Source: a virus. Taken from it: 31,400 nt of DNA. Location of the stretch: the IMG/VR virus record IMGVR_UViG_3300025102_000154, positions 1 to 31,400 of that record; one strand, 5' to 3'. How positions within the stretch are numbered: position 1 is the first letter of the stretch; every line of letters begins with the position of its first letter. Positions 14,165-30,008 of the stretch are shown piece after piece. Both the position numbers and the translations under genes were made by a program. The notes beneath the pieces were generated by a model. It made no database searches. It was given only the letters and a program-made list of their open reading frames with translations, and was not told the origin of the DNA.

Positions 14165-14649
14165 TGGTAACAATGCCTGGCTGGACTTATAAAAATACTA
14201 TAATTACAGCTATAAACGATATGCCTAAAGGTACTTATGGATTTATTTACGAAACTACTCATAAACCTACAGGTAGAAAATATATAGGAAAAAAAGTACT
14301 ATATTTTGAACGTAATAAAAAATTAGGGAAAAAAGCATTACAAGCTTTAAAAGAAGAAAGGAAAGCAAAAGGAATAGGAGGAAGAGTACCACTCAAACAG
14401 AAAGTAGTTACCGAATCAGATTGGAAAGATTATTATGGTTCTCATAAAGATATACTAAACATATTAAAGAAAGGAGAACCTACTGATTTCGTTAGAAAAA
14501 TACTTTGTTTTGTTCCTAATAAAAAATTACTTACTTATTACGAGTGTAAATACCTATTTATAAATGAGGTATTAGAACAAGAAGATAGGTATATTAATGA
14601 TAATATCCTCGGTAAATTTTATAGAAAAGATTTTAATGAAACTAAGTAG
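14161..14649 (+). CDS. GIY-YIG nuclease-like protein (Seg-type family)
   Basis: 162 residues. It shows the GIY-YIG signature as YGFIY (26-30) and YIGKK (41-45), followed by a basic linker, SDWKDYYGSHKDI (around 95-107) and YYECKYLF (around 126-133) carrying the likely catalytic Glu. This layout is common in free-standing Seg-like putative endonucleases of T4-like marine phages. It starts by ATGA overlap with the glycosyltransferase gene and its 3' end overlaps the next gene by 14 bases, so it is embedded in the operon rather than inserted in a gap. No DNA-binding module beyond the nuclease core is evident. It might be a mobile element endonuclease or a DNA-processing enzyme of the phage. Confidence 0.75.
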   Translation: MMVTMPGWTYKNTIITAINDMPKGTYGFIYETTHKPTGRKYIGKKVLYFERNKKLGKKALQALKEERKAKGIGGRVPLKQKVVTESDWKDYYGSHKDILNILKKGEPTDFVRKILCFVPNKKLLTYYECKYLFINEVLEQEDRYINDNILGKFYRKDFNETK

Positions 14650-14941
14650 TATAATTCTTAACGAAGAAAATAGGTATAATGACGACGGGTATGACGAAGG
14701 AGATATTAAACTAATGGGTGATATGATTCTACCTACTGATAAAATGGTTGTCCTGCAAGCAGAAGAAGATACATACAACAGAGGACTACTAGTTACTAGT
14801 AATAAAGATAAAAGTTACGATGTAGCATATTGGGCAGATGATAAAACTAAACCTTACCCGATTGGGATAGAAATAGACGGTAAAGAAGTTGCAAAAGATG
14901 CTAAAATCGTTAAGTTCCTTTTCCACCCTGAAATGAAATAA
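14636..14941 (+). CDS. Small protein with capsid-targeting-like leader
   Basis: 101 residues. I place the start at ATG 14636, not the upstream in-frame ATG 14597, because the resulting N-terminus MKLSSIILNEEN matches the leader of the kinase at 15861 (MKLSQIILEG) and others in this region. It also gives the 14-base overlap seen elsewhere. The leader ends in an L-x-E motif of the type cut by the T4 prohead protease. The remainder is a small acidic beta-rich domain (DKMVVLQAEEDTYNRGLLV, YDVAYWADD, IVKFLFHPEM) that I do not recognise. Proposed to be an internal capsid protein; this rests on the leader similarity only. Confidence 0.7.
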   Translation: MKLSSIILNEENRYNDDGYDEGDIKLMGDMILPTDKMVVLQAEEDTYNRGLLVTSNKDKSYDVAYWADDKTKPYPIGIEIDGKEVAKDAKIVKFLFHPEMK

Positions 14942-14942
14942 T

Positions 14943-15491
14943 ATGATAAGAATAAAAAAATTAATAGGATTACCATCCTTACAGTACCATTTAGATAATA
15001 ACCTAACTTTAAAAGAAAATGTCTACCGCTATTCAAGCGATAGCTTTATACAATTATTTTCTGAAGCAAGAGATGCTTGGAGAGACGGTTATATACAGCT
15101 TAATGAAGAAGATGTTGATCTTATAGAAAATACCGACATAGGAGAATATGGAGTTTTTGAAGGCGAAAAAGTTCCTTTAGATCTTCCAATGGTAGGTGAA
15201 GCTGAATACAAAGGTAAAGATGTAGCATTGAATAAACCTAAGAGAGGTGGCCCTAAAAAGTTTTACGTTTATGTTAAAAACCCTAAAACAGGTAACGTTA
15301 AAAAAGTAAATTTCGGTGATAGTGGAAATTTATCCGTTAAACTTAATGAACCAGGAGCAAGAGCTTCATTTGCTGCAAGACATAAATGCGCACAGAAAAA
15401 AGATAAAACAAAACCTGGCTATTGGTCATGTAACATAGGTCGTTATTGGAAATCATTGGGAGGTTCTAAGAATTTTAGTGGATACTGGTAG
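14943..15491 (+). CDS. Conserved phage protein with SFAARHKC..GYWSC C-terminal motif
   Basis: 182 residues, starting one base after the preceding stop. The N-terminal half (about 1-65) is variable, acidic, and contains SFIQLFSEARDAW. After PMVGEAEYKG (around 80) comes a conserved domain: NKPKRGGPKKFYVYVKNP, VKKVNFGDSG, then RASFAARHKCAQKKDKTKPG and YWSCNIGRYWKSLG. I recall this C-terminal domain as frequent in T4-like marine phages and giant phage proteins, with no assigned function. The two Cys and several basic residues could bind metal or nucleic acid. The VGE-A junction before the conserved domain resembles a prohead-protease site, so the N-terminal part may be removed; this is inference. 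Confidence 0.75.
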   Translation: MIRIKKLIGLPSLQYHLDNNLTLKENVYRYSSDSFIQLFSEARDAWRDGYIQLNEEDVDLIENTDIGEYGVFEGEKVPLDLPMVGEAEYKGKDVALNKPKRGGPKKFYVYVKNPKTGNVKKVNFGDSGNLSVKLNEPGARASFAARHKCAQKKDKTKPGYWSCNIGRYWKSLGGSKNFSGYW

Positions 15492-15729
15492 ACCATATAT
15501 AGAAAAAGGGGAAATAAGAACCTTTAGTAAAGACCTTACTGAAGATGATCTAGTTTGGCATCGAGATAGAGAAGATCGTATTATCGAACCACTTCAAGAG
15601 ACTGATTGGAAATTTCAATACGATAATAATAAGCCGGAGAGTCTTAAGCGACTATTTATTAGAAAGGGTGTATACCATAGGTTGATAAAAGGCACCAAAG
15701 ATTTAAAATTAAAAATAATCAAATTATAA
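15478..15729 (+). CDS. Small cupin-like phage protein (GTG start)
   Basis: 83 residues, read from GTG 15478, which overlaps the previous gene by 14 bases, a spacing used repeatedly here. No in-frame ATG exists before the conserved part. The sequence DLVWHRDREDR, then TDWKFQYDNN and LFIRKGVYHRLIKGTKDL, matches from memory a small conserved protein of T4-like marine phages with a cupin-like pattern (H-x-D...PxxxxHxxxxG). The two His clusters could bind a metal. Function unknown. The next small ORF begins at the base after its stop. Confidence 0.65.
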   Translation: MDTGRPYIEKGEIRTFSKDLTEDDLVWHRDREDRIIEPLQETDWKFQYDNNKPESLKRLFIRKGVYHRLIKGTKDLKLKIIKL

Positions 15730-15864
15730 ATGGCAAGAATCATTCTCAATGATTATGTAGGTTCTAAAAGTAAAAAAAGACCCGGTGTTCATGCAAAAAG
15801 CAAAACATCTAAGTTAAAAAATAGTAGAAACTATAAAAAATCTTATAAAGGACAAGGTAGATGA
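15730..15864 (+). CDS. Very small basic conserved phage protein (44 aa)
   Basis: The ATG at 15730 directly follows the stop of the previous gene, and TGA at 15862-15864 overlaps the next ATG (ATGA). The product starts MARIILNDYVGSKSKKRPG and continues VHAKSKTSKLKNSRNYKKSY to KGQGR. It is extremely Lys/Ser/Arg-rich with almost no acidic residues. The GVHAK.K.SK...SRNYKK.Y.GQGR pattern is one I recall from other marine phage genomes. Coupling on both sides argues that it is real. The charge suggests nucleic acid or capsid-interior binding; role unknown. Confidence 0.7.
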   Translation: MARIILNDYVGSKSKKRPGVHAKSKTSKLKNSRNYKKSYKGQGR

Positions 15865-16292
15865 AACTTTCACAAATCATATTAGAGGGCCCGCTTCAAT
15901 ATGATCCTGATTTTAATCGCGAAATAGATAAAATACAAGATCAGGGAGGAAAATACCTAGGTTCAGGAGACTACGGCTCTGTCTACTTACTTAACGGAAA
16001 AGCTGTGAAAGTAACCACAGACTCTATAGAACTAGACCATGCTGAAAAAATTAAAGGTAAAAAAACTAATAATTTTGTTTATATTTTTAATGTAGAAAGA
16101 TTAAACGATAAATTAGGTATCATTACAATGGAGGTTATGGGGGAATACAAAGGAGATATTCCGGAAAAGTTTTTACAAAATCTAGAAAAAGAAGCACTTA
16201 ATTACGGCATTCCCCCTGATGAATTAGATATTAGACCAGATAATTTCATGGTGCATCCTAAATCCGGCAAAATAAAAATGACTGACGTATAG
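15861..16292 (+). CDS. Minimal protein kinase-like protein with capsid-targeting-like leader
   Basis: 143 residues. Leader MKLSQIILEG (1-10). The kinase N-lobe follows: glycine-rich loop YLGSGDYGSVY (32-42), AVKVT lysine (K50), hinge ITMEVM (88-93). A very short C-lobe then has a catalytic-loop-like DIRPDNFM (D123, N128) and a DFG-like TDV (D142) at the C-terminus. The protein ends right after this Asp, so it lacks the activation segment and the rest of the C-lobe. Whether it phosphorylates protein, acts on a small substrate, or is a pseudokinase cannot be told. The leader suggests packaging in the head and delivery with DNA, comparable in idea to T4 Alt. Last gene of its operon; a promoter-like site begins at its stop. 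Confidence 0.75.
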   Translation: MKLSQIILEGPLQYDPDFNREIDKIQDQGGKYLGSGDYGSVYLLNGKAVKVTTDSIELDHAEKIKGKKTNNFVYIFNVERLNDKLGIITMEVMGEYKGDIPEKFLQNLEKEALNYGIPPDELDIRPDNFMVHPKSGKIKMTDV

Positions 16293-16322
16293 TTGTTATT
16301 CTTAATATTTTTTCATATATTA
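16292..16322 (+). promoter_or_regulatory. Candidate promoter GTTG-N20-TATATTA (site 2)
   Basis: GTTG at 16292-16295, 20 bases, TATATTA at 16316-16322, 17 bases before the primase ATG at 16340. Spacing is identical to sites 1 and 3. The GTTG begins at the last base of the kinase stop codon. It would drive the operon 16340-20804. Confidence 0.6.
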
Positions 16323-16339
16323 ATATTTAACTATAAAGT

Positions 16340-17266
16340 ATGGACTATACCTTTTTATTAGGTGCTTTAGAGAATATATTAGGAAGAAGTCATAAAAGAG
16401 CTAGAAATAATCACGCTTTTCATTGTCCTTTTTGCAACCATCGTAAACCTAAGTTAGAAATTAATTTAATTACTAACGATGAAGGTAAGAATTTTTGGGA
16501 ATGTTGGGTGTGTAAAACTAGAGGTCAGAGTATATACTCTCTAGTAAAACAACTTAAACTTCCTAAATTAGAAGGTCAAGAAGTTTTAAAATATGTAAAA
16601 AAAGGTAAAAAGTATAATTACAAAAATGAAGAAGCAGTTGAATTACCAAAAGAATTCCAACCATTAACAACTGCAACTCAAAGTTCTATAATAGCTAATA
16701 AGATTAAAAAATATCTACATGAACGAGGATTTACCAAAAATGATTTTATTAAATATAATGTTGGATACACAACAACTGGAGACTATGGAGGAAGAATCAT
16801 TATCCCAAGCTATTCTTCATCCAATAGGCTCAACTATTTTATTGGAAGAACTTACGAAAACTCTTATTTTAAGTACAAAAATCCGCAATCTACCAAAGAC
16901 ATAATATTTTTCGAAAATTTAATTAATTGGAATCAACCTATAATTCTATGCGAAGGAGTATTTGATGCGATAGCTATTCGTAGGAATGCTATACCTATTT
17001 TAGGAAAGAGTTTATCTCCTTCATTAATAAAAAAAATTATTACATCCAATGTAAAAGACATTTATATAGCTTTAGATAAAGATGCACAAAAAGATGCATT
17101 AGAAATATCTGAAAAACTACTTAACCTAGGTAAGAGGATCTTCCTAGTTGATCTCAAAGAAAAAGACCCCAGCGAGATGGGCTTTAAAGCTTTTACTCGT
17201 CATATACAAACAGCAGAAGAATTAGACTTATCTGGTCTAATGCTGCACAAAATGCAAGCCATATGA
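16340..17266 (+). CDS. DNA primase (T4 gp61-like)
   Basis: 308 residues. An N-terminal CHC2-type zinc finger has C29, C32, C55 and C58 (FHCPFCNH and ECWVCKTRG). A Toprim-type domain follows with LCEGVFDA (E205) and YIALDKDAQK (D246, D248). GGRIIIPSYS and YFIGRTY (around 161-181) match the strand region before Toprim in primases. The length is close to T4 gp61 (about 340). It synthesises RNA primers for lagging-strand replication with a replicative helicase, which is not in this window. The gene is first in its operon and is coupled to the next by an ATGA overlap (17263-17266). A replication gene in the middle of virion-type genes is notable. Confidence 0.9.
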   Translation: MDYTFLLGALENILGRSHKRARNNHAFHCPFCNHRKPKLEINLITNDEGKNFWECWVCKTRGQSIYSLVKQLKLPKLEGQEVLKYVKKGKKYNYKNEEAVELPKEFQPLTTATQSSIIANKIKKYLHERGFTKNDFIKYNVGYTTTGDYGGRIIIPSYSSSNRLNYFIGRTYENSYFKYKNPQSTKDIIFFENLINWNQPIILCEGVFDAIAIRRNAIPILGKSLSPSLIKKIITSNVKDIYIALDKDAQKDALEISEKLLNLGKRIFLVDLKEKDPSEMGFKAFTRHIQTAEELDLSGLMLHKMQAI

Positions 17267-18045
17267 TAAGGCAAGGTACGAATATACTAAAAGAAAATTC
17301 TAAAAATAGATTAAATTTTAAACCTGAACTTAAACAGATTAATTTTCTAGACCGAAGAGTTTACAAAAGAGATGAAGGAGTTTACTACCCATCAGTTACT
17401 ACTATTCTTCAATATATGCCAAAAAACAAATTTTTTGATAACTGGTTAAAAGATGTTGGACACAATGCTGACTTAATAATGAGAAAAGCAGGTAAAGAAG
17501 GTACTCAAGTTCATGAAGCTGCTGAAGCATTAGTTTTAGGTAAAGAAGTTAATTGGATGGACGATTACGGTAATGCTAAATATTCTCAAATAGTTTGGGA
17601 AATGATCTTAAAATTTTATGATTTTTGGTCTACCTGCAAACCTAAACTAATATCTACTGAAGAATTTGTATTTTCAGATAAATTTAAATATGCCGGCACT
17701 GCTGATTTATTAGTAGAAATAGACGGTGAAATTTGGTTATTAGATCTAAAAACATCAAATAATTTACATAGATCATATAACTTACAACTTGCAGCATATG
17801 CTAAAGCAATTGAAGAGACGAAAGGAATAAAAATACAAAGAACAGGAATAATTTGGTTAAAAGCTAGTACTAGGTCTGCTTCTAAAAAGAAAGGAGTATA
17901 TCAGGGAAAAGGATGGCAAATAAAAACTATTGACGAAATAGATTATAATTTTGATTTATTTCAAACTATATATAAACTTTATTTGTTAGATAACCCTAAT
18001 ACTAAACCTATTTATAAGAGTTATCCAACAACTATAAAATTATGA
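17263..18045 (+). CDS. PD-(D/E)XK exonuclease, RecB/Cas4-like
   Basis: 260 residues. Motifs are in the order of the RecB/Cas4-like nuclease family: PSVTTILQYMP near the N-terminus, G-T-QVHEAAE with H84, EE at 133-134, GTADLLVEIDG with D148, LLDLKTS with D161 and K163, and NLQLAAYAKA with Q175 and Y179. All catalytic residues are present. Likely a DNA exonuclease used in recombination, repair or host DNA breakdown. The N-terminus MIRQGTNILKEN loosely resembles the leaders of nearby proteins (I-L-K-E), but less clearly. Joined by ATGA overlaps to the primase upstream and the lipoprotein downstream. Confidence 0.85.
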   Translation: MIRQGTNILKENSKNRLNFKPELKQINFLDRRVYKRDEGVYYPSVTTILQYMPKNKFFDNWLKDVGHNADLIMRKAGKEGTQVHEAAEALVLGKEVNWMDDYGNAKYSQIVWEMILKFYDFWSTCKPKLISTEEFVFSDKFKYAGTADLLVEIDGEIWLLDLKTSNNLHRSYNLQLAAYAKAIEETKGIKIQRTGIIWLKASTRSASKKKGVYQGKGWQIKTIDEIDYNFDLFQTIYKLYLLDNPNTKPIYKSYPTTIKL

Positions 18046-18908
18046 AAAAACTAGCACTACTTCTATTTCTTTTTATTACCTTATCTAGTTGTGGTGTTCA
18101 ATGGCAATATACATCGTTAAGTACCGCAGGACAAGTTAACAGTATATACAGATCATCTAATGTACAAGTTGACACAATTACATCTCTTTCTGATTTAAGA
18201 TGGAAACTTAGAAACGACTTTAATTTCAGATACGATTTTGCAACTTATGCAATGCAACAACCTTATACATGGTATTGGAATAATCCAAGATTAGAAGGTA
18301 TTTGGAGACCGTATAATAGATTTGATATTTACTTTAACAGTAACTGGTTTTGGAATGATTGGGCATTTAACTATCCCTTTCATCATACTTGGGGATGGAA
18401 CAATTGGTATAATTGGAATAGACCATATAACTACTATGGGTGGAATAGACCCTATAGTCCATGGAATAATTGGAATAATAATTGGTATAACGGTCCTTTT
18501 AATAATCAAGGGTATAATGTTGTATGGAATTCAAGTCGAAGAGGCAGCAGTAGATCTTATATTAACGGGTATAGAACTAATATAGTATCCAATAATATAC
18601 AATCTGTGCTCAATACCAATAGGAGAACAAGAAACACTTTAAACACAACTAATTATAATAAACCACTAGTAATAAATAATAATGATCAAGTTATTAAACC
18701 TAATACAAGAACAAATTGGAAACCCCAAAGCAATAGTAATGGCCGGGGGGGGAGGAACAGGCAAGTCTTACCTCCTTCAACAACTAGATCTAACTTCACT
18801 CCAACAGTTCAACCCAGACAAGTACGTGGAGGATCCGGAACATCGATTCCACAACAATCTAGGAGCAGCATCAGCACAAGTAGCCAAAGACGTGGAGGCG
18901 GCAGCTGA
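18042..18908 (+). CDS. Trp/Asn/Tyr-rich lipoprotein overlapping the next gene
   Basis: 288 residues. A signal peptide of Lys-Lys plus a Leu/Phe core ends in the lipobox LSSC (C17), so the mature protein should be lipidated. Residues about 75-170 are very rich in W, N, Y, P and G (WNNWYNWNRPYNYYGWN-type repeats). The remainder is Ser/Arg/Asn-rich and low in complexity. Such WN-rich lipoproteins are common in Bacteroidetes, supporting such a host. In a phage, an envelope lipoprotein could block superinfection or aid lysis, but no homology decides this. The last 227 bases also encode the first 76 residues of the P-loop kinase in another frame. GC content rises to about 49% in 18761-18900 and falls to about 32% right after this stop, consistent with dual coding. 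Confidence 0.75.
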   Translation: MKKLALLLFLFITLSSCGVQWQYTSLSTAGQVNSIYRSSNVQVDTITSLSDLRWKLRNDFNFRYDFATYAMQQPYTWYWNNPRLEGIWRPYNRFDIYFNSNWFWNDWAFNYPFHHTWGWNNWYNWNRPYNYYGWNRPYSPWNNWNNNWYNGPFNNQGYNVVWNSSRRGSSRSYINGYRTNIVSNNIQSVLNTNRRTRNTLNTTNYNKPLVINNNDQVIKPNTRTNWKPQSNSNGRGGRNRQVLPPSTTRSNFTPTVQPRQVRGGSGTSIPQQSRSSISTSSQRRGGGS

Positions 18909-19611
18909 AACAGGAATTAGTTTCGTTTGGGATACTACGGCTTCTAATCCTTCTAAAATACAAGACCTTTTAAATAGAGGGTATGATGTATATATGATTA
19001 TGGTATATGCTCATCCTATGATTTCATATGTATCTAATTTCGGAAGAAAAAGAGCATTACCTGCAGTAGCAGTGTTTTCAACTTGGAGAAACGTATACCA
19101 ACTGATAAGTCAGTATCAAGATATGTTAGGGGATAATCTATCTATTTTTATAAATGATAGAGGAGGTAAATTTAATAAGGAAATTGAAGCTTTTAATAAA
19201 GCAGGCGAAAGAGGAGTTAATGGAATAAAAGAATTCCTTAAATCCTATAACGAAAAAACGGGTACAGGTAAATCATCTTTTTTTACTCCTGTTAATATGA
19301 GTTCTGAAGAAGAGCAAGCTTTTAATAAAGCAGTAGCTGATATAGATTATGATAGAGATCATAGATCTGAAGATAAAGCTATAAAAAAAGAATTTTTAAA
19401 ATTTTACCAAAAAAACGGTGTTGGACCAGGTGATGACCAGTTAATTAAAGCTCGAGATAAATTTAGAGATAGTAAAGCTAAAAGCGAAAAGAGAAGTGAT
19501 GACGTTTTAGAAAATATAGCTGAAATGTTATTTAGCTCTGATTTTCAAAAATTACTTAAATCTTCTTCTGTAGCTGATATTGATAAAAAAGTACAAAAGT
19601 TTTTGACATGA
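18682..19611 (+). CDS. P-loop kinase (zeta-toxin/PNK-like) with leader peptide
   Basis: 309 residues. The start at 18682 is supported by the leader-like N-terminus MIKLLNLIQEQ and by a correct Rossmann strand plus Walker A, AIVMAGGGGTGKSYLL (18-33). It is followed by FNPDKYVED, a helix, and FVWDTTASNPSKIQ (about 81-94), typical of zeta-toxin or polynucleotide-kinase-like P-loop kinases. YDVYMIMVYAHP and R-rich segments come next. The C-terminal third (about 220-309) is charged and helical. The substrate is unknown. The whole nucleotide-binding site lies within the part that overlaps the lipoprotein gene. The stop overlaps the next ATG (ATGA, 19608-19611). The leader ends I-Q-E, fitting prohead-protease specificity, so delivery into the host is plausible. 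Confidence 0.8.
   Translation: MIKLLNLIQEQIGNPKAIVMAGGGGTGKSYLLQQLDLTSLQQFNPDKYVEDPEHRFHNNLGAASAQVAKDVEAAAETGISFVWDTTASNPSKIQDLLNRGYDVYMIMVYAHPMISYVSNFGRKRALPAVAVFSTWRNVYQLISQYQDMLGDNLSIFINDRGGKFNKEIEAFNKAGERGVNGIKEFLKSYNEKTGTGKSSFFTPVNMSSEEEQAFNKAVADIDYDRDHRSEDKAIKKEFLKFYQKNGVGPGDDQLIKARDKFRDSKAKSEKRSDDVLENIAEMLFSSDFQKLLKSSSVADIDKKVQKFLT
18745..18752 (+). repeat. Run of eight G in two overlapping reading frames
   Basis: A G8 tract inside the Walker A codons of the P-loop kinase and in the lipoprotein tail, in an AT-rich genome. Loss of one G would join the lipoprotein frame to the kinase frame. It could be a slippage site or a base-calling risk. Confidence 0.9.
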
Positions 19612-20804
19612 TAGCATTATACCCCGGAGCTTTTAAACCACCTCATAGAGGACACTTTGAAGTAGTAAAAAGCTTACTTAACGGTAATCATAGAGGTAGA
19701 GAATACAGTATTGAAAATTACTTAGATGCTGGTGTTCAAGCACTTAAAGGCTCAGAAGGTAGTGTAAAACCAATTGAAAAGGTAGTAATTTTTGTTAGCG
19801 GTGGGGTAAGAAACGGTATTTCTATAGAAGAATCTATTAAAGTATGGAATATTTATTCTAAATACCTCAGTAATATAGAAATAGTCGATGGAGGTAGTAA
19901 TCCAATGATTACTGCAAAAGATTACGCAAAAAGTAATCAAGATAAAAATTTTTACGCTATAACAGGTATTAGATCAGAAGAGGATTTAGTAGATTTAAAA
20001 AGAGTAACTACTTTTAAAAATAGAAAAAATGTTGAAGGGCTGGTAATACCGGCTAGTACTAATTCAAACGTTAGAGCAACAGACTTTAGAAAAGCACTAC
20101 TTTCAGGTAATCTAGATCAAGTAATTGACTTTTTTCCCAAAGAAATAAGTAGAGATGATATTTTAAAAATAATGAAAATGTTAAAAAGCAGTATTATAGC
20201 TGAAGAAATGGAAAATCAGCTTAACAGTAAACTTAATAGTATATTTGAAACTACAGAAGGCTCCTCAGGTACTCACGTAGCTCATAAAAGCGTACAGAGA
20301 TCTGAAGATAGAGCAAATTTAGTTTCTCTATATAGTAAATTAAGGCATGAATTAGGTGATGATCTTTTTCATATTAATTTTAATCAGGATAATATCACTA
20401 TAACTAATAAAGGAGAAGATTTCAATATAAGTTTTGACTACACTCCTTACATGGGCTCTATATTAGAGTATATGATAGATGAAGGTATTAATATACTCCC
20501 TTTACCTGAAATAAAAATTAAAAAAGATATTAAAGAATCCTCAGATTTTTTTGGTAAAACTGCTTACTATACCCCTGATTCTAAGGAAGTAGTTTTATAC
20601 GTTGAAGGCAGACACCCAAAAGACGTAATGAGATCTTTTGTTCATGAAATGATTCATCATAAACAAAATTTAGAAGGTAGATTAGGTAATATAAACACTA
20701 CTAATACCAACCAAGACGAAAGATTACTAGAGTTGGAAAAAGAAGCTTACCTAGAAGGTAATATAACCTTTAGAAACTGGGAAGATTCAGTAAAAAATAC
20801 TTAA
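19608..20804 (+). CDS. Nucleotidyltransferase fused to a zinc metallopeptidase-like domain
   Basis: 398 residues. Domain 1 (1-180): YPGAFKPPHRGHFEVV with the HxGH motif at 13-16, and VRATDFRKALLSG (165-177), as in cytidylyltransferase/NMN-adenylyltransferase-like enzymes. A linker (188-202) reads IMKMLKSSIIAEEMENQ, resembling the leader of neighbouring proteins (MKLSSIILNEEN). Domain 2 (about 230-398): KTAYYTPDSKEVVLYVEGRHP, then FVHEMIHHKQNLEG with the HExxH zinc motif at 346-350, and a downstream LELEKEAYLEGN helix offering a third ligand. The nucleotide substrate cannot be assigned. The protease may be a gluzincin-type peptidase. The protein could be cut at IAE-E between domains. Coupled by ATGA to the P-loop kinase; last gene of its operon. 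Confidence 0.8.
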   Translation: MIALYPGAFKPPHRGHFEVVKSLLNGNHRGREYSIENYLDAGVQALKGSEGSVKPIEKVVIFVSGGVRNGISIEESIKVWNIYSKYLSNIEIVDGGSNPMITAKDYAKSNQDKNFYAITGIRSEEDLVDLKRVTTFKNRKNVEGLVIPASTNSNVRATDFRKALLSGNLDQVIDFFPKEISRDDILKIMKMLKSSIIAEEMENQLNSKLNSIFETTEGSSGTHVAHKSVQRSEDRANLVSLYSKLRHELGDDLFHINFNQDNITITNKGEDFNISFDYTPYMGSILEYMIDEGINILPLPEIKIKKDIKESSDFFGKTAYYTPDSKEVVLYVEGRHPKDVMRSFVHEMIHHKQNLEGRLGNINTTNTNQDERLLELEKEAYLEGNITFRNWEDSVKNT

Positions 20805-20808
20805 AAAA

Positions 20809-20869: not shown

Positions 20870-21415
20870 ATGAATACAAGTATTGTAGATTTATTAGAAG
20901 CATATCCGCTTCCAGAGCAAAAAGAAGTACCGCCATATAAAATATACTGTGATATGGATGGAGTACTTACTGATTTTGAATCAAGATTCGAATATTTTAC
21001 TGGTATGTCCCCTAAGGACTACGAAAAGAAAAATGGAATAGGTGGTTTTTGGAATCTCATCGACGTAGAAGTTGGAGTAAGATTTTGGGTAGGTATGTCA
21101 TGGATGCCTCAAGGGGAAAGATTATGGAATTTTATTTCTCCTTATAAACCTGATTTATTAACTTCTCCTTCTAGAGATAATAATTCGAGATTAGGAAAAA
21201 ACTTATGGGTAAAGAATAATTTAAATCCTAAACCTAAAGTTATATTTGCTTATTCAGCTGATAAACAAAGGTATGCTAATGAAAATAGTATATTAATAGA
21301 TGATAAAAAGTCCAACATTAACGAATGGGCAGCTAAAGGAGGTATAGCTATTAGATGTAAAAATGGTAATGTAGATCACGTAATAGAAAAACTTATGGAA
21401 CTTGGTTATGAATAA
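20870..21415 (+). CDS. HAD-family phosphatase (5'-nucleotidase-like) with leader peptide
   Basis: 181 residues. The N-terminus MNTSIVDLLEAYP is leader-like (L-L-E-A). The HAD core follows: motif I YCDMDGVLTDF with nucleophile D28 and acid/base D30, motif II LLTSPSRD (about 98-105), a Lys-containing segment, and motif IV ILIDDKKSNINEW (about 141-153). The cap is small and helical. Proteins of this layout are annotated as 5'(3')-nucleotidase or 3'-phosphatase-like; substrate is not decided by sequence. First gene of an operon after promoter-like site 3. Its end overlaps the next ATG by eight bases. Confidence 0.8.
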   Translation: MNTSIVDLLEAYPLPEQKEVPPYKIYCDMDGVLTDFESRFEYFTGMSPKDYEKKNGIGGFWNLIDVEVGVRFWVGMSWMPQGERLWNFISPYKPDLLTSPSRDNNSRLGKNLWVKNNLNPKPKVIFAYSADKQRYANENSILIDDKKSNINEWAAKGGIAIRCKNGNVDHVIEKLMELGYE

Positions 21416-22025: not shown

Positions 22026-22805
22026 ATGGCAAAAAAAAAGAAAATTTCTTCAGATACATATGCTTTTATGAGAGAACTCATAAGGGAATCTTTAAGAGAC
22101 TGGTTTAAGAAAGAGAAGTGGGTACGCATCTCTTCTTCTGGTAATATAGCTGGCCCTTGCGGTACGTCTAAAGATAAGAAAAATCCCGATAGGTGCCTAC
22201 CAAAAGCAAAAGCTCAAAGTTTAACAAAAGGTCAAAGAGCCGCTACTGCAGCCAAGAAAAAGAAAGCAGGAAGTAAAGGAAAGACAGTCGTGAAAAATAC
22301 AAAAAAAGCAACAGTGAAAAAAGAAAATTTAGATCCTTCATATAAACATGATGGAAAATCAGCACCATTTGGTTCAGGTTATAGACCTGTAACTAAAGAA
22401 GATTTTACTAATTTAGTAGTAGGTATGATTCATGAAATAAAAAATAATAAAGTTACTTTTGGGTACGATTTAGATGCTATTCAAAATGTAGTCGACCACT
22501 TAAGGAGTAATTACAAAGAAGGACAAGATTATGAATTACATATTCAAAGAGGTGATGATCTACCTAATGCTATTACTTTCCCTAAAGGTAAATTCAAAGA
22601 TGATTACGATTTAAATGATATGCTAAATGTAGCACAGAGTGACGAAGATAGGTATGATGCTTATACTGATGATGATTTAAATGAGAAAAAAGATGATAGG
22701 TGTACTCGTATAGCTAAACGCAAATACGATACTTGGCCTTCTGCATATGCTTCAGGAGCAGTAGTTAGATGTAGAAGAGGTGAAATATGGAAAAAAGAAA
22801 AATGA
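22026..22805 (+). CDS. Lys-rich conserved phage protein with DUF5872-like segments
   Basis: 259 residues. After a helical start (YAFMRELIRESLRDWFKKE) comes KWVRISSSGNIAGPCGTSKD, then NPDRCLPKAKAQSLTKGQRA and AATAAKKKKAG, a pattern I associate with DUF5872-like proteins. A Lys-rich linker follows, then YKHDGKSAPFGSGYRPVTKE and a mixed alpha/beta domain (about 125-215). The C-terminus has RIAKRKYDTWPSAYASGAVV and RCRRGEIW, a second short conserved module common in phage and giant-virus proteins. The three segments look like independent modules. Function unknown; the basic character suggests an internal or DNA-associated virion role. The stop overlaps the next start as ATGA (22802-22805). Confidence 0.7.
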   Translation: MAKKKKISSDTYAFMRELIRESLRDWFKKEKWVRISSSGNIAGPCGTSKDKKNPDRCLPKAKAQSLTKGQRAATAAKKKKAGSKGKTVVKNTKKATVKKENLDPSYKHDGKSAPFGSGYRPVTKEDFTNLVVGMIHEIKNNKVTFGYDLDAIQNVVDHLRSNYKEGQDYELHIQRGDDLPNAITFPKGKFKDDYDLNDMLNVAQSDEDRYDAYTDDDLNEKKDDRCTRIAKRKYDTWPSAYASGAVVRCRRGEIWKKEK

Positions 22806-23857
22806 TAAAAATTACAGACATATTGTTAGAAGCAACTTTTGATGATATCAAAAATCTTTCTTACGCTAAAGTTAAAGAAACGTATGCTCTTAGAAAGAAA
22901 ATAAGTCAGGCTATTCTTAATTTTTTTCCTCATGAAGATCATATGGTTAAAGTAGAATACTACGGAGACTATGTAGAGGATGAGGATGAATTAACAGTGA
23001 AAGAGCTTATAGAGTATGTTGATAAAAGAATCGACGATAATGTACTCCTAAATGACGATATTAGCATTGACCCGGCTACTGATAAATCTCCTACACTTTT
23101 TATAGATGTGGGGGAAAATTCTTTCGAAATCACTTCTCTTGATGATGAAGAATTTTTTGCAGAAAATTATGCTGATAGAAAAGTAAAAGTTAATTCTCAA
23201 CTAAGTACGATGAAAATGTCTGACATACTGTTAGAAGCTAAAGGGTTTTCTTTACCCTCATTACCTTATGCTTATAATGCTCTAGAGCCTCATTTTGATG
23301 AAGAAACTATGAGAGAGCATCATACTAAGCACCATAAAGGATACGTAACTAAGCTTAACGATGCTATGAAAGGTAAAGCTAAAAGTATAGAAGAAATCTT
23401 ATCTAATATTAAAAAATATGACGATAAAGTAAGAAACAATGCTGGAGGAGCATATAACCATACCCTCTACTTTAACTTACTATCCCCAGATGCTACAACA
23501 AATCCCGTCGGCCAATTAAAAGAAGATATAGATAAAGCTTTTGGTTCTTATCAAAAGTTTAAAGAAGAGTTTACAAACGCAGGTACAGGACAATTTGGAT
23601 CCGGATGGGCTTGGTTGACTCTTACTAGTAATGGACTAAAGATACATAGTACTCCTAATCAGGACAATCCATTAATGAGCTACTCTGAAATAAAGGGAGA
23701 TCCTATTATAGGTATGGATGTTTGGGAACATGCATACTACCTAAAACATAAAAGTAAAAGAGCTAGCTATATCAAAGATTTTTTTAAAGTATTATGTTGG
23801 AAAACAGCAGAAGAAAATTACCAAAAACTAATTAATAAAGATAATGAAGATAATTAA
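22802..23857 (+). CDS. Two-leader fusion: unknown domain plus Fe/Mn superoxide dismutase
   Basis: 351 residues from ATG 22802; I prefer it to ATG 22787 because it gives the leader MIKITDILLEA and an ATGA overlap. Residues 12-136 form a small acidic domain I do not recognise. At residue 137 a second leader occurs in frame (MKMSDILLEAKG, DNA 23210), followed by a complete Fe/Mn SOD: LPYAYNALEPHFDEETM, REHHTKHHKGY, NNAGGAYNHTLYF, GSGWAWL, GMDVWEHAYYLKHKSKR. All four metal ligands (two His, then Asp and His of DVWEH) are present. From the second Met the SOD would be 215 residues, a normal family length. SOD converts superoxide to peroxide and oxygen. The protein may be cut at both LLE-A sites, or the SOD may also be made from its own start. 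Confidence 0.85.
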   Translation: MIKITDILLEATFDDIKNLSYAKVKETYALRKKISQAILNFFPHEDHMVKVEYYGDYVEDEDELTVKELIEYVDKRIDDNVLLNDDISIDPATDKSPTLFIDVGENSFEITSLDDEEFFAENYADRKVKVNSQLSTMKMSDILLEAKGFSLPSLPYAYNALEPHFDEETMREHHTKHHKGYVTKLNDAMKGKAKSIEEILSNIKKYDDKVRNNAGGAYNHTLYFNLLSPDATTNPVGQLKEDIDKAFGSYQKFKEEFTNAGTGQFGSGWAWLTLTSNGLKIHSTPNQDNPLMSYSEIKGDPIIGMDVWEHAYYLKHKSKRASYIKDFFKVLCWKTAEENYQKLINKDNEDN

Positions 23858-24317
23858 ACTTATTAAAGACTTAGTGCTTGAAGGTAAACTATCAGATTAC
23901 GGTAAAAATAATACTCCAGCAGCATTGAATAAAGAAAAAGCTTTAGGTAGTAAAAAAGTAGATCCAATGGATTCTATTCAAGACCTAGATCTTAATACAT
24001 TAGGTAGAAACGTAACAGTAAAAGAATACAGATACGGTCCTCTTAATCCTAACGACGAAAAAGGTTCTAAAAAATTCTGGGAAGATAAAGCTGAAATGTG
24101 GGATACAACAGTAGAACACGCTAAGACTTCAAGATGTTCTAATTGTTCTGCTTTTAATCAAAAGCCTGCTACTCTTAAAAAAATAGCTAAAGCAATAGGA
24201 GATGAGGGTCAAAAGATAGTTAAACAATCTAATATAGGTTTTTGCGAATTTTTCTGGTTTAAATGTGCAGGTGCTAGATCATGCGATGCATGGGTCGGAG
24301 GCGGTCCTTTAAAATAA
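23844..24317 (+). CDS. Cys-rich conserved phage protein with leader peptide
   Basis: 157 residues, overlapping the SOD gene by 14 bases. Leader MKIIKLIKDLVLEGK (1-15) ends in V-L-E-G. A conserved domain follows: GPLNPNDEKGSKKFWEDKAE, MWDTTVEHAKTSRCSNCSAF, GFCEFFWFKCAGARSCDAW and VGGGP. The Cys at RCSNC, GFC, FKC and SC are spaced like a small metal-binding site (zinc or iron-sulphur). From memory this domain occurs in T4-like marine phages without known function. With the leader it could be an internal capsid protein. The next gene starts seven bases after the stop. Confidence 0.75.
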   Translation: MKIIKLIKDLVLEGKLSDYGKNNTPAALNKEKALGSKKVDPMDSIQDLDLNTLGRNVTVKEYRYGPLNPNDEKGSKKFWEDKAEMWDTTVEHAKTSRCSNCSAFNQKPATLKKIAKAIGDEGQKIVKQSNIGFCEFFWFKCAGARSCDAWVGGGPLK

Positions 24318-24323
24318 TTTATT

Positions 24324-25124
24324 ATGCCATTAGGAAAAAAAGCTGACGCAGGAGATTATATTAAAGACTTTCGAAAATCTGATGCACCTCAATTTAAAGG
24401 TAAGTCTAAAAAAAAGAAAGATCAAATGGCTGTAGCTGCTTATTTAGCTAAAAAAGACGAAATCGTAGATATAGTTAGAGAACTACTACAGGAAGCTGAC
24501 CCAAAAAAAGGTACTGGTAAAAAACCTAAAGGTTCTGACCGTAGGTTATACACCGATGAAAACCCTAAAGATACAGTCTCAGTAAAATTTTCTTCAAGAC
24601 AAGATATAGTAGATACTTTAAATAAAAAATCATTTAAATCTAAATCTCATGCTCGTCAATCTCAAGTAATTAATTTAATTCACCAAAGAGTAAGAGCGGC
24701 ATACGGTAGAGCAAAAGATCCTGCAGTTAAGAAAAGATTAAAAACAGCATTAGATTATGCTGAGCAAAGAAAAGAATCTTCTAAGAAAAAAACTCAAAGA
24801 TTAAAAAAAGCTAAAAACGAAAGTTTATGGGCTAATATTAATGCTAAAAAGAAAAGAGGCGAAAAATCTTCTCATAAAAATTCTAAAGCTTATAAAGCTG
24901 CAAAAAAAGCAGGTACTTCATTAAAGAAATCCAAAATGAAAGAAATAGTTTTAGATGTACTATATGAAAAAAGCGTACATGACCCAGTTAAACCAGGTAT
25001 ACTAAAAAAACGATTAGGTGATCTATCGTGCTCAAAAGTTAGATCAGCAAAAAGTAAACTTAAAAACAAAGGTACACATTACGCTAAAGCTTTACAAAGA
25101 TATTTAAATTACCACTGTCAATGA
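24324..25124 (+). CDS. Modular basic phage protein with two internal leader-like segments
   Basis: 266 residues. Module 1 (1-43): PLGKKADAGDYIKDFRKSDA, PQFKGKSKKKKDQMAVAAYL. Segment EIVDIVRELLQE-A (46-58) resembles a leader with LLQE. Module 2 (59-165): KPKGSDRRLYTDENPKDTVS, VKFSSRQDIVDTLNKKSFKS, SHARQSQVINLIHQRVRAAY, a conserved phage domain (DUF5824-like, from memory). After a Lys-rich linker comes a second leader-like segment MKEIVLDVLYE-K (205-216), and module 3 (217-266): KPGILKKRLGDLSCSKVRSA, KNKGTHYAKALQRYLNYHC. Modules 2 and 3 occur in separate proteins elsewhere, as far as I recall. Strongly basic. The arrangement suggests a polyprotein cut during head maturation, or simple domain shuffling. 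Confidence 0.7.
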   Translation: MPLGKKADAGDYIKDFRKSDAPQFKGKSKKKKDQMAVAAYLAKKDEIVDIVRELLQEADPKKGTGKKPKGSDRRLYTDENPKDTVSVKFSSRQDIVDTLNKKSFKSKSHARQSQVINLIHQRVRAAYGRAKDPAVKKRLKTALDYAEQRKESSKKKTQRLKKAKNESLWANINAKKKRGEKSSHKNSKAYKAAKKAGTSLKKSKMKEIVLDVLYEKSVHDPVKPGILKKRLGDLSCSKVRSAKSKLKNKGTHYAKALQRYLNYHCQ

Positions 25125-25747: not shown

Positions 25748-25757
25748 TCTATTTATT
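25747..25757 (+). promoter_or_regulatory. Candidate phage promoter, TATTTAT class
   Basis: TCTATTTATTT (TATTTAT at 25750-25756) in the 39-base gap before the 833-residue gene, 37 bases from its ATG, the same distance as the site at 21989. Confidence 0.3.
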
Positions 25758-25786
25758 TATATACCTATATAAAACTTACACATATA

Positions 25787-28288
25787 ATGGCTAAAGATAA
25801 AATTACTATTAAAGAAGAAGAAATGGGAGATGATGGATTCGTTGCGACTGACGATGAAAAAAAAGCTGCTGATCTAGCTAAAGACGGAGTTAAAGTCAAA
25901 CTTACTAGTGAACAAGAAGGAATAACTTTTTCAATTAAAGAAACTAAAGCAATAGCAAAAGAAGTAGGAAAAGCATTAATCGAAGCTTTGAGAGAAGCAG
26001 GTGATGAAATAGAAACAATTAAAGCTCATCATATTCAAGAAAATACTTTTGATGTATATGTAAAATATAAAAACGATTTTGAAGACGAATTTACTTTTGA
26101 TATTAGAGAAGATAGGTTACATTTAGTAGATTTTTCTTTTGATAAAGATTTAGTTGACGTAGGAGTTAAACCCTCAGGAGAGCCTATAGTTAATGTAGAT
26201 GTATTAAAAAATGAATTACTAAAACACTTTAAATCTCTAAACGAAGAAGAAACAGATAGGCAAAAATATCTGAGAATGTTAGATATGTACAAAAAATCTT
26301 CTGGTCAAGATAGAAAAGATTTAAAAGGTAAAGTTGAAAAAGCGGCTAAACAAGTTGGAATTAAATTACAATTATCTGAAGCTCCTGAAGGTATGTATTA
26401 CTTAAAAGTAGACATTAGAGATGCTAGACAGGCTATTGGAATACTTGACGATAAATACAGAAAAGAAGTTGAATTTAGCGGTTCAGATACTTATTACTTT
26501 AATGACGAAACTACTGCCTACGATGCTATGATGGACTTAAAAGCTAACGATATAGTGATAGCTGATACTAATTTAGACCTATTCGCTGAAGGAACAGATA
26601 ACGAAATGGAATTAAAAGGACAAGAATTAGTAGACTATATAATGAACCATTGGAATTGGTCAGAAGAAAAAACATTAAAGTTTCTTGCAGATAAATTCGG
26701 TAATAGTCAAGAAATAAAAGAAGAATCAGACTTAATTAAAAAATATCAACAGAGTATACCTAATTATCCTAGACTGGCTTTAGATATCTTAAATAAAAAT
26801 AAAAAAGAAATAGGTAGTATATACGATAAGTACAAAGGTCAAGGTCAAAATGCTAATATGGCATTAAAAAAAGATTTAATGACATTGCTTCAACCAGACA
26901 TCGATAATGTTGATGTTCCGGAAGATAAAAAAGAACTAGTTATGAAATATATTAAAATGGGACTAGCATCTCATGAAAGAGCATCTATCTACAGAGCAGG
27001 GGGCATCAACCCAGATACTAAGGTAGTAGGGGAAGCTAATATAAATCCTGAAGCAGAAAAATACGTTAAAAGATTTATTTCTGGTGTAGCACAAAAGTAC
27101 GGCTATGATGAAATGGACGCAGTACATCTTATTTATCAAGTACTTGCAAATACAGGTTACCTAGATATGAGATTAGAAAATATTAACGAAAGAGTTGGTG
27201 CTTTACAAGATTTTATTAACCTAATAAGAGATAGAGCTATTGATAGTGAATTCTCAGAACAAGAAGAAGCACTAGAAGTAATAGAAGCTTTAGCAGATCA
27301 TTACGGTATTAAAATACAAACAGGCGGTTTTGTAGGAGAAGGTCAGTTAAAAGAATATACAGACCGTTCATTCACAGGATCAGGAGTAATAGATGATGCT
27401 AATGAAAAAAGTCCAGATATGTTTACTAAAAAGTTATTTGCAGACCTACTACCTAAAGGAGTAGCTAGTGAAAACGATGCCATAGAAGCTTTAAAAGCAC
27501 ATGATAAGAGTGGTATCAAAGCTAGAATGGGGCAATATGCTCCAATGTTTGTTCATCTTCAATATCATAATTTAGAGCATGAAGGTGAAGACTATAGAAT
27601 ACATCAAAAACAGTATTATAATAGCAACTTTAAAGATAAAGATCCAGACTTTAATCCTGAAGTATCTCTATTAACATTAATTAAGATTACTAAGAAAGCA
27701 GCCGATAGACGTGATAGAGAAGAAACTGAGGTGTTAGGTAAAATAGTTGTTAAAACTGATCAATATATACAAGATCTTAGTAACTTACCTGGATTAGGTA
27801 AGGGAGTAAGTGAAGCAATAAATGAAGATGAAAATGCACTAATTATCAACGGTAAAGCAGTTGATATTGGGACTATAGAAGTAGATGGAGTAGATAAATC
27901 TCAAGGATATGATGATGGTACCGCAGATGCATTTGCTGTATATGCTGAATTTGAAGATGGTAGTAAATTAACCGATAGTGAACTAGAAGAACTTACAGAT
28001 GACAACCCTGATTTAATTCATAATCTTGCCATAGATTCTTTTCATGAATCAGCACCAGGTTACAAACACGACTGTGCTGCTCATGTAGTTCACGAAACTT
28101 ACGGCCATGGAATGTGTATACCAGAAAAACATACCTTAATTAAAGAAGGAAATAAGTATGTAGTAACTCATTACGATGTGGTTTTTAAGAAAGATAGAAA
28201 AGTAGTAAGAGATATTCCGGTCAACGAGTTAAAAATAATTACTCAAAACGAACACTGGCATAAAGGGTATAAAAAGAAAAAGAAATAA
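25787..28288 (+). CDS. Large modular acidic protein, possible capsid-interior polyprotein
   Basis: 833 residues, no signal peptide or membrane segment. It reads as a chain of small domains separated by hydrophobic-x-E-A/G junctions: QLSE-A (198), LFAE-G (268), VVGE-A (416), FVGE-G (518), GVSE-A (676). Modules include a beta domain (200-265: GMYYLKVDIRDARQAIG..YYFND), helical regions (270-510), a charged alpha domain (520-670), a beta/acidic domain (684-750: ALIINGKAVDIGTIEVDGVD, GSKLTDSELEELTDDNPDL) and a His/Cys-rich C-terminal module (755-833: APGYKHDCAAHVVHETYGHG, then QNEHWHKGYKKKKK). The last two modules occur in other marine phage proteins as I recall. The junctions fit prohead-protease specificity. 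A scaffold/core protein or internal polyprotein is plausible; function is unknown. Confidence 0.7.
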   Translation: MAKDKITIKEEEMGDDGFVATDDEKKAADLAKDGVKVKLTSEQEGITFSIKETKAIAKEVGKALIEALREAGDEIETIKAHHIQENTFDVYVKYKNDFEDEFTFDIREDRLHLVDFSFDKDLVDVGVKPSGEPIVNVDVLKNELLKHFKSLNEEETDRQKYLRMLDMYKKSSGQDRKDLKGKVEKAAKQVGIKLQLSEAPEGMYYLKVDIRDARQAIGILDDKYRKEVEFSGSDTYYFNDETTAYDAMMDLKANDIVIADTNLDLFAEGTDNEMELKGQELVDYIMNHWNWSEEKTLKFLADKFGNSQEIKEESDLIKKYQQSIPNYPRLALDILNKNKKEIGSIYDKYKGQGQNANMALKKDLMTLLQPDIDNVDVPEDKKELVMKYIKMGLASHERASIYRAGGINPDTKVVGEANINPEAEKYVKRFISGVAQKYGYDEMDAVHLIYQVLANTGYLDMRLENINERVGALQDFINLIRDRAIDSEFSEQEEALEVIEALADHYGIKIQTGGFVGEGQLKEYTDRSFTGSGVIDDANEKSPDMFTKKLFADLLPKGVASENDAIEALKAHDKSGIKARMGQYAPMFVHLQYHNLEHEGEDYRIHQKQYYNSNFKDKDPDFNPEVSLLTLIKITKKAADRRDREETEVLGKIVVKTDQYIQDLSNLPGLGKGVSEAINEDENALIINGKAVDIGTIEVDGVDKSQGYDDGTADAFAVYAEFEDGSKLTDSELEELTDDNPDLIHNLAIDSFHESAPGYKHDCAAHVVHETYGHGMCIPEKHTLIKEGNKYVVTHYDVVFKKDRKVVRDIPVNELKIITQNEHWHKGYKKKKK

Positions 28289-28289
28289 T

Positions 28290-28895
28290 ATGAAAGTAAG
28301 TAGATTTAAATATTTAGTTGAACAAGCTTATTTGGAAGTCTTAAAAGAAGCTGATGAACCTAAACCAGAAGATCCAATAGGGGATGAAAAAGCTAGTGAA
28401 CAGACAGTATTAGAAGATGCTACTGATCAAATGTTAAGCAAATTTCCAACTTTAAAAAATACTTTAGTTAAACTTATGACTGAGGATTTTAAAGAATTTG
28501 TAGATACTATAGATTGGGTATCACCTAAACCTACTACTTTTAAAGTAAATTTAGTAAACGGTCAAGATTTTACGTTAAAATGGACCGGTAAAAATTTCCA
28601 AGCTCAAATATTAGGTAAAAGGTATATGCTTGGAAATATAAGTGATTTTCAACAAGCTTTAGATAAATTATCTAAACTCTATCAACAAGCACCTTTAAAA
28701 GGAGCTGGTGAAGAAGGCGGCGAAGGCGGCGAAGCAGACTTTGGCGGAGGCGGAGGCGGAGCAGACTTCCCCGGTGAAGAAGGTGGAGGCGAAGAAGCAG
28801 CATTTGATGATGCAGGAGCAGCCGGAGGAGAAGAAGGCGGTGGAGAAGACCTAGGCGGAGAAGAAATAGATTTCGAAGCAGGAGAAGAAGGATAA
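28290..28895 (+). CDS. Acidic Gly/Glu-rich tailed protein with leader-like N-terminus
   Basis: 201 residues. N-terminal MKVSRFKYLVEQAYLEVLKE-A is a longer, helical, leader-like segment. A compact alpha/beta domain (about 45-130: TDQMLSKFPTLKNTLVKLMT, FKVNLVNGQDFTLKWTGKNF) is followed by a highly acidic tail of G, E, D and A (about 135-201). The tail is GC-rich (GGCGGA repeats), which stands out from the AT-rich background. Acidic proteins like this occur in T4-like prohead cores (gp67/gp68 type), but sequence similarity is not evident. The tail could mimic DNA or fill the capsid. Two bases separate it from the 833-residue gene; the next ATG follows its stop directly. Confidence 0.7.
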   Translation: MKVSRFKYLVEQAYLEVLKEADEPKPEDPIGDEKASEQTVLEDATDQMLSKFPTLKNTLVKLMTEDFKEFVDTIDWVSPKPTTFKVNLVNGQDFTLKWTGKNFQAQILGKRYMLGNISDFQQALDKLSKLYQQAPLKGAGEEGGEGGEADFGGGGGGADFPGEEGGGEEAAFDDAGAAGGEEGGGEDLGGEEIDFEAGEEG

Positions 28896-30008
28896 ATGAA
28901 TCTTATAGATAAAGTCATATTAGAATGGTCTTATAGGACCAAAAAAGGATACCCTGATATCAACAATAGAGATGATGTAAGGATATTTGAGTCTTTATTT
29001 GGAATTGACTTATTTGAAGGAAAAAAACCTATAGAATACCTTTCACCTGAAGCACAAAAATTAGGTAAAGAACTTATTAAAAAATTAGGTCTTGAAGATG
29101 ATGAAATAAAAGCTCATGCAAAAAATAGAATTATAGTATATACTGATAGACCTAGGCAAGAGGTATTTAATTCACTAAAAGATTTAGGTTACGAAAAAGA
29201 TTTGATCAGAGGCTCCAGTGCAGGAGGTTTTAAAACACCTGAAGGAATTGAAATTATTCATAAAGCTCAAACGTCTGTTGGTGATGCTGGATTGGATAAT
29301 GAGGATATTGTAGTTAGAAAAATAAAAGAAAGAGCTGAACTTGAAAGACAGATTACAGTTATATTTAAAGGTTCAAATAAATCTTTAGAATATAAAGGTG
29401 TTACTGGGGCAGTAGGAGTAGGAAGAGAAAGCGGAGGAAATAAAAAAGCTGATATAAAACTTTTAACATCAGGTGGTGACAAGGGTATTTCCATAAAAAA
29501 AGACGGCCCATTTAGATGGTCTTCAGCAATGAAAACCCATGGAGATATTTTTCATAAAGTAATGGGTGATGCATATAAAGGTAAAAGAAGTGATTTGAAA
29601 TTAATTTCAGATAAAGATAACCCTAGAGTGCTAGTTATGATGAATCCAAAAAATAACTTACCATACGGTAGAATTCATGTAATCAATGCACCAGGATTAG
29701 ATTTTGAAACTATGGCATTCGGATCTGATAAAGTATCAGTAGTACAACGTACTTTTGAGGACGATGATTTTAAATTTAATAAGGGAGTACTAACTATTAC
29801 TTCAACTAAAGTATATAAAGAGGTTAGTGACTTTGACGATGATGATAAACCTATTATACAGTTTGAAAGAAATGCATCAAAAGCATCACAGACAGATGGT
29901 TATGTAGGTAGGGGTATCACTATAAGAACTGTACCTATATCAGTTAAAAATAAAGTAACATCTAGAGCGAATAACCTTACTATAGATTATAATGATCTAG
30001 ATATATAA
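28896..30008 (+). CDS. Possible PD-(D/E)XK nuclease with leader peptide
   Basis: 370 residues. Leader MNLIDKVILEW (1-11) with I-L-E. The segment GGNKKADIKLLTSGGDKGIS, then IKKDGPFRWSSAM (180-213), has the D...(S)xK arrangement of a restriction-endonuclease-like core: D186 at the end of one strand and SIK (199-201) on the next. The second acidic residue of the motif appears replaced by Ser, which occurs in some nuclease families but weakens the call. The remaining C-terminal part is beta-rich (ITSTKVYKEVSDF, ITIRTVPISVKN). If real, it would be a nuclease delivered with the genome or acting on host DNA. The terminase starts five bases after its stop. Confidence 0.6.
   Translation: MNLIDKVILEWSYRTKKGYPDINNRDDVRIFESLFGIDLFEGKKPIEYLSPEAQKLGKELIKKLGLEDDEIKAHAKNRIIVYTDRPRQEVFNSLKDLGYEKDLIRGSSAGGFKTPEGIEIIHKAQTSVGDAGLDNEDIVVRKIKERAELERQITVIFKGSNKSLEYKGVTGAVGVGRESGGNKKADIKLLTSGGDKGISIKKDGPFRWSSAMKTHGDIFHKVMGDAYKGKRSDLKLISDKDNPRVLVMMNPKNNLPYGRIHVINAPGLDFETMAFGSDKVSVVQRTFEDDDFKFNKGVLTITSTKVYKEVSDFDDDDKPIIQFERNASKASQTDGYVGRGITIRTVPISVKNKVTSRANNLTIDYNDLDI

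Follow-up and report, generated by a model that had tools for sequence, protein, structure and literature searches.

In bacteriophage T4 the first ten residues of the internal protein IPIII suffice for packaging into the head and are then removed by the prohead protease gp21 (PMC9026906, PMC9958956), and the tag alone packages foreign proteins (PMC9026906, PMC5694885). A related arrangement appears in a 31.4 kb fragment of a marine T4-like myophage, a virus of bacteria (IMG/VR record IMGVR_UViG_3300025102_000154; the whole stretch analysed is called the window here), in which unrelated proteins start with short, similar leaders ending in (L/I)-x-E. These leaders are best read as T4-type capsid-targeting propeptides on swappable, largely enzymatic cargo, a reading to which we assign a probability of about 0.82.

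As in the window, the T4 proteins IPI-IPIII combine an N-terminal tag of ~10 residues ending in (L/I)-x-E with unrelated proteins behind it and with a gp21 protease encoded in the genome. By contrast, the T4 internal proteins are few and small, whereas in the window phage the cargo families are many and include enzymes, and the tags fall into several classes and are in part internal. The IPII/IPIII tag MKTYQEFIAE is found neither in the window nor in the T4 gp24 and Alt propeptides. The window leaders, of the type MKLSxIILE, are nearer to T4 gp24, while cyanophage tags are nearer to the tag of the T4 internal proteins; indeed, the gp24 propeptide MAKINELLRE↓S (the arrow marks the cut or predicted cut) is nearly in the style of the window leaders, but gp24 is a shell protein and not cargo. 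T4 Alt, like the cargo proposed here, is an enzyme that travels in the head, but it is a single ADP-ribosyltransferase. In the giant phages phiKZ and SPN3US a gp21-related protease cleaves head proteins behind a Glu, and these are ejected with the DNA (PMC5694885), but the motif is A/S-x-E and the propeptides mostly comprise at least 100 residues. For the T4-like cyanophages S-CREM2, S-SCSM1 and S-SZBM1, kinases, NMNAT and SAM hydrolase were reported in virions by mass spectrometry, and these enzymes are shown below to carry tags; the cyanophages differ in their cyanobacterial hosts and in the tag form F-x-x-F-L-x-E. No description of capsid-targeting tags of this type in marine or Bacteroidetes T4-like phages was found in the open-access literature.

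Shared Leaders in the Window and Its Relatives

The window carries tail-fibre genes on the left, then closely packed small genes (14.1-30.0 kb) and the gene of the large terminase subunit (TerL). The Flavobacterium phages ‘immuto’ are its nearest isolates (TerL identity 80%), and their annotated genome (L083) served as full-genome reference. Leaders were defined by a Glu at residue 8-16, a Leu or Ile two residues earlier (P3), at least three hydrophobic residues and no Pro, Cys or Gly within the leader. This rule matches 7 of the 31 window genes, compared with 0.90 on average, and never more than 5, in 2000 shuffles of residues 2-26, and the matches are clustered, with 7/20 genes inside the 14.6-30 kb zone vs 0/11 elsewhere in the window (p=0.03). 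A previous sequence-only reading had listed seven such leaders and a longer variant at 28290; all seven are present, and the matching genes are six of these plus the longer variant. The remaining leader, MKIIKLIKDLVLE↓G at 23844, fails the rule solely because P3 is Val instead of Leu or Ile. The shared leader is therefore confirmed, and chance is very unlikely to account for it.

The excess extends to immuto, in which 28 of 239 proteins match the rule vs 10.0 in shuffles, with 13/35 matches in the cluster reaching from the tail-spike end as far as the capsid gene vs 15/204 elsewhere (p=1.3e-5). Among the immuto proteins with a predicted cut site are immuto_184 (NLADLLLE↓), immuto_178 (MISIYNILKE↓), immuto_193 (MSVVDKIVIE↓) and immuto_179, 194 and 195. 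For the control flavobacterial phages phi38:1 and phi10:1, which are without a T4-type protease, 8/178 proteins match, equal to their own shuffle rate, and none of the 178 scores above the profile threshold, as 8/239 proteins of immuto do; a comparison of the leader profile with other phages, as the sequence-only reading had suggested, thus finds the controls matched less often than immuto and does not refute that reading. In T4, used as positive control, the rule recovers ipII, ipIII, gp22 and gp24. The profile trained on the window families was also tried as a T4 detector, but scores the T4 internal proteins and Alt low; it is therefore clade-specific, and the plain (L/I)-x-E rule was used for T4.

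Tagged Proteins of the Window

All leaders and internal sites described here lie on the plus strand. The leader MKLSSIILNE (14636..14665; gene 14636-14941) precedes a 91-aa domain, relatives of which start with MKLSDIILKE, MKLTDILLE or MKLIEILTE, or with a type-C leader in contig L048. The leader MKLSQIILE (15861..15887; gene 15861-16292) stands on a minimal kinase-fold protein, for which the AlphaFold model has a pLDDT of 86, only residues 1-12, the leader, being below 50; a Foldseek search with this model returned protein-kinase folds, which supports the assignment as a minimal kinase.

MIKLLNLIQE (18682..18711; gene 18682-19611) is placed on a P-loop kinase of the zeta-toxin family (Pfam Zeta_toxin, 1.6e-10), and its relatives show 13 distinct leaders, all ending in xE. 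The same gene is overlapped by 227 nt, on the same strand and in another frame, by a lipoprotein-like gene (18042-18908); an overlap of 230-239 nt with a similar protein end, PxQxRGG..PxxQQxRSS, is present in 7 of 10 relatives checked, and is not kept in the other three (L086, L088, L089).

A HAD-type 5'-3' deoxyribonucleotidase (gene 20870-21415; PHROG 2643, 8.6e-21) carries MNTSIVDLLE (20870..20899), and its relatives have 16 distinct leaders, in two of which Asp replaces Glu. The leader at 23844..23882 (gene 23844-24317) is followed by a Cys-containing protein; its relatives have 28 different leaders built along the same lines, mostly ending in xE↓G. The longer leader MKVSRFKYLVE↓QAYLEVLKE↓ (28290..28349; gene 28290-28895) precedes an acidic, Gly-rich protein; in its relatives this form with two sites recurs, or larger proteins carry MHKLEKLILE↓SYAELLNE↓ instead.

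The gene 28896-30008 starts with a module of ~42 aa (28896..29018) holding two (L/I)-x-E sites, MNLIDKVILE↓ and, at residue 41, LFE↓G. The protein behind it had been called nuclease-like, which is unproven: the AlphaFold model (pLDDT 53) is too poor for a fold search, and searches of Pfam, PHROG, NCBIfam and PDB gave no nuclease match for the family. A pattern D...(E/S)xK, suggestive of PD-(D/E)XK nucleases, is visible by eye in several clusters of proteins from this locus, but no database confirms it. PADLOC returned no match. Of the other cargo identities proposed from sequence, the superoxide dismutase (SOD) described below is certain, the P-loop kinase and the HAD phosphatase are specified as zeta-toxin family and deoxyribonucleotidase by the matches given above, and the minimal kinase is supported by its fold model.

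Internal Tags and Predicted Polyproteins

The SOD gene had been described as a single leader followed by the enzyme. Both are present, but the open reading frame (ORF; 22802-23857) is in two parts: MIKITDILLE (22802..22831) precedes an N-terminal part of ~125 aa, and a second, internal leader, MKMSDILLE (23210..23236; TMKMSDILLE↓A), is placed directly upstream of an Fe/Mn SOD domain (23237..23854, plus strand; Pfam 8e-36 and 2e-26), which the predicted cut would release. The alignment to SODs in the PDB starts at residue 148-150, so that a cut after residue 145, as predicted, would leave the enzyme starting where solved SODs start. In relatives SOD is a free-standing gene with such a tag at its start, the one in contig L115 having the near-identical leader MIKMSDILLE. 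Phage SODs keep the leader down to 47% identity, while SODs with cell-like N-termini, from five other contigs, are without it.

Similar sites are seen in two further genes. The gene 22026-22805 has an early leader-like site, YAFMRELIRE↓S (22059..22088), and its relatives start directly with MTKNELNIIVKE↓SLRDW or MKQSTVRDIVKE↓SLRDW. In the gene 24324-25124 the sites VDIVRELLQE↓A (24465..24494) and KEIVLDVLYE↓K (24939..24968) are internal, the latter standing before a C-terminal domain of 51 aa, which is a free tagged gene in L028, L048 and L056 and is fused in the window with the junction tag kept. Since internal tags are kept in the SOD ORF and in the 24324 fusion, cargo polyproteins are predicted.

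Conservation and Swapping of the Leaders

Relatives were gathered for six tagged cargo families, with the HAD family drawn from other loci. Among their 91 distinct leaders P3 is Leu, Ile or Val in 88 and P1' is mostly Gly, Gln, Ala, Glu or Ser, while Glu at P1 was imposed by the search, the two HAD homologues with Asp being the only departures seen. The letters of the leader change between relatives, while each domain keeps its tag. Many of the starts are not in doubt, because an in-frame stop lies within a few codons upstream. Identical leader peptides are encoded by different codons (11 DNA versions of 3 peptides).

The tags are also exchanged as whole units. In many genomes the tag of the 14636 domain resembles MKLSDIILNE, but in L048 it is MSTFNIKKFLIENQLTTSSKLNE, and the family of immuto_176 has either MKLSELILE or MENSFNLRKFLSENKLTTNSRVLAE. 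The long tag of the second type precedes 17 mutually unrelated C-terminal parts; a longer tag form in relatives is of the type NFDLKKFLTENKLTxNSRLLxE. In the gene just upstream of TerL the 42-aa module is constant, with 45 distinct N-terminal forms over 49 C-terminal parts; those from L001-L080 form 11 BLAST clusters, which profile comparison links in few cases and weakly. By these sequence comparisons the leaders are interchangeable modules.

Two further shared starts are possible extra tag classes: immuto_41 and immuto_188 (L083, L081) share the N-terminus MKKQILSEQFxRMQxLAGIITES, and immuto_176, 177, 191 and 199 share a start resembling MKKSxLxxIIxEEL.

Prohead Protease and Its Expected Substrates

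The TerL gene (gp17; 30014..31400, plus strand) is cut by the window end, and the head genes continue in the environmental contig L001, which overlaps the window with 99.89% identity over 8.0 kb. A second contig, L085, overlaps it with 99.97% identity over 11.7 kb, and both are, judged by these sequences, practically the same phage as that of the window. Beyond the terminase L001 encodes a portal, a core protein, a gp21-type protease, another core-like protein and the major capsid protein. The protease (L001:13761-14339) matches PHROG 207 (head maturation protease) at 2e-54 and has the His and Ser site motifs GELDHP and GISSRG, compared with GELNHP and GVSSRG in T4 gp21. A Pfam S77 (gp21) search of the window alone, run without a working positive control, gave no match, as expected for a fragment that ends in TerL. 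Since L001 overlaps the window almost identically and encodes the protease, the window phage has the enzyme that the proposed trimming requires, in line with the expectation of the sequence-only reading.

The same (L/I)-L-E motif recurs in the structural proteins. In this clade the N-terminus of the major capsid protein reads ME[IL]N[QSN]L[LF]E[GS], with SGLLEG as a second site, the L001 protein having MEINQLLE↓G...SGLLE↓G, and the core protein of the immuto_200 family, encoded in the same cluster, has MKTIQEKYNAILE↓G; the L001 core protein starts with MKTIQEKYNAILEG. The capsid and core proteins are the expected substrates of the protease, with the same motif as the leaders.

Tagged Proteins in Cyanophage Virions

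The virion proteome of the T4-like cyanophage S-CREM2 has been published (PMC10665884, Table 3), in a text that mentions no N-terminal signal or cleavage (PMC10665884). In two segments of this genome, chosen because they hold non-structural virion proteins and with five structural virion proteins left out, the leader rule matches 5/13 proteins detected in virions vs 5/93 undetected proteins (p=0.002). The tagged proteins are the SAM hydrolase (MKDFDSFLE↓E), ORF13 (MKDLHSFLTE↓Q), a kinase (MKRFDAFLTE↓E), an NMNAT (MKNFSSFLTE↓A) and the short ORF17, and two further virion proteins have the motif further in, namely a Cas9-like protein (FASFMAE↓A) and ORF15 (NPLFE↓K). Tagged NMNATs were likewise reported in virions of S-SCSM1 (MKSFLQFLKE↓A) and S-SZBM1 (MRFRQFIIE↓A).

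Proposed Pathway and Alternative Explanations

By analogy with T4, an amphipathic N-terminus of 9-14 aa, the 42-aa module or the longer type would dock the protein on the prohead core, and the gp21-type protease would then cut after the Glu of (L/I/V)-x-E, as expected for the capsid and core proteins. After trimming, the proteins would remain packaged alongside the DNA and be delivered into the next host. Such cargo would comprise SOD, the minimal and zeta-type kinases, the deoxyribonucleotidase, nuclease-like proteins and small basic or Cys-containing domains, which could be swapped freely because the tag alone grants access to the head. Where tags are kept at internal junctions, the gene product would be a cargo polyprotein from which the protease releases individual mature proteins, in the case of the 22802 ORF the ~125-aa part and SOD. 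Packaging and trimming, as proposed by the sequence-only reading, are well supported by inference, albeit indirectly, through the protease, the capsid and core motifs, the module swapping and the enrichment in cyanophage virions. Injection and action before phage transcription, which it had also proposed, would follow from the analogy, and any role in the host (removal of superoxide, a shift in nucleotide pools, modification of host proteins) is a guess.

Several points weigh against this pathway. Virion proteomics or N-terminal data were not found for the window phage or immuto, and the tag sequence differs from that of the T4 internal proteins. The rule gives false positives, with a background of about 4-7% that includes several T4 proteins not known as cargo. 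Several neighbouring genes are untagged, among them the NMNAT at 19608, whose cyanophage counterparts are packaged. Some relatives of the 14636 domain have no leader when fused behind another protein, and behind a leaderless NMNAT-like protein (L302, L304, L320) the domain is without a full leader of its own. Furthermore, the cyanophage virion preparations may, according to their authors, have been contaminated.

The alternative that survives best, although we consider it unlikely, is that the tagged proteins are scaffold-like parts of the prohead core, which would be targeted and cut and then degraded or extruded, or else retained uninjected; the tag would then be a genuine propeptide, but without any delivered enzyme cargo. 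The shared motif of the core protein in the same cluster fits this explanation, as do the T4 proteins gp22, gp67 and gp68, which are targeted and then degraded (PMC9958956), and the further internal sites in many window proteins. However, intact, conserved enzymes such as SOD, the nucleotidase and the kinases have no structural reason to be there, and the tagged cyanophage enzymes persist in mature virions.

Less probable again is that the leaders are uncut docking helices for another shared partner, such as the replisome, the membrane or the terminase, with (L/I)-x-E acting as a helix cap. Cleavage itself is so far unobserved, and some leaders, like the 42-aa module, are long and conserved past the motif. 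Yet the L/I/V-x-E end persists although the leader is otherwise highly variable, the major capsid and core proteins have such ends too, tagged cyanophage proteins are found in virions, and operon neighbours that serve replication and packaging (primase 16340, exonuclease 17263 and TerL) are without the tag.

Chance, that is, short hydrophobic N-termini ending in Glu being common in AT-rich phages, could draw on the background of the rule, but is largely refuted by the excess over shuffles and control phages, the clustering, and the conservation and swapping across many contigs, and is very improbable. Equally remote is a translational or regulatory signal at the nucleotide level, which would suit the position at the start codon in most cases but is refuted by the synonymous leader codons and by leaders kept at internal junctions far from any start (SOD 23210, 24939).

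Neighbouring Genes and Possible DNA Modification

The NMNAT/cytidylyltransferase-like gene 19608-20804, which has no leader, encodes a zinc-protease-like motif VHEMIHH in its second half. For the gene 14161-14649 the top PHROG is named ‘NAD synthetase’, yet homing-endonuclease families match too, so that the name looks like a transferred misannotation. In immuto the annotation of 18.6-37 kb includes QueC/D/E/F, FolE and a DpdA-like DNA transglycosylase, because of which immuto DNA may carry 7-deazaguanine; this would suit packaged nucleases that spare the phage DNA.

Implications for T4-like Phages

The principle is already known from the T4 internal proteins and Alt. As far as the open-access literature was searched, what is new in marine Flavobacterium-type T4-like phages is the extent of its use and the form it takes, with several tag classes, many enzymes and tags inside fused genes, together with a locus of constant tag and variable cargo at the terminase and a connection to the enzymes of cyanophage virions. 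A wider picture, for and against which we find the case evenly balanced, is that marine T4-like phages use an address-label system with interchangeable tag classes, ~10-20 swappable proteins per virion, many of them enzymes, protease-cut polyproteins and a locus of constant tag and variable nuclease beside the terminase, and that this system would bring a ready-made set of metabolic and counter-defence proteins (SOD, kinases, nucleotidase, nuclease) into the host, acting before phage gene expression.

The tags provide a sequence test that separates phage ‘auxiliary’ enzymes travelling in the virion from those made during infection, and they predict the exact mature N-termini. They also offer an explanation for the cyanophage virion kinases and NMNATs that the authors could not separate from contamination, and could serve as new signals for loading heads used in protein delivery. 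If a phage delivers SOD as a protein, this would be the bacterial-virus parallel to the enzymes that large eukaryotic viruses carry.

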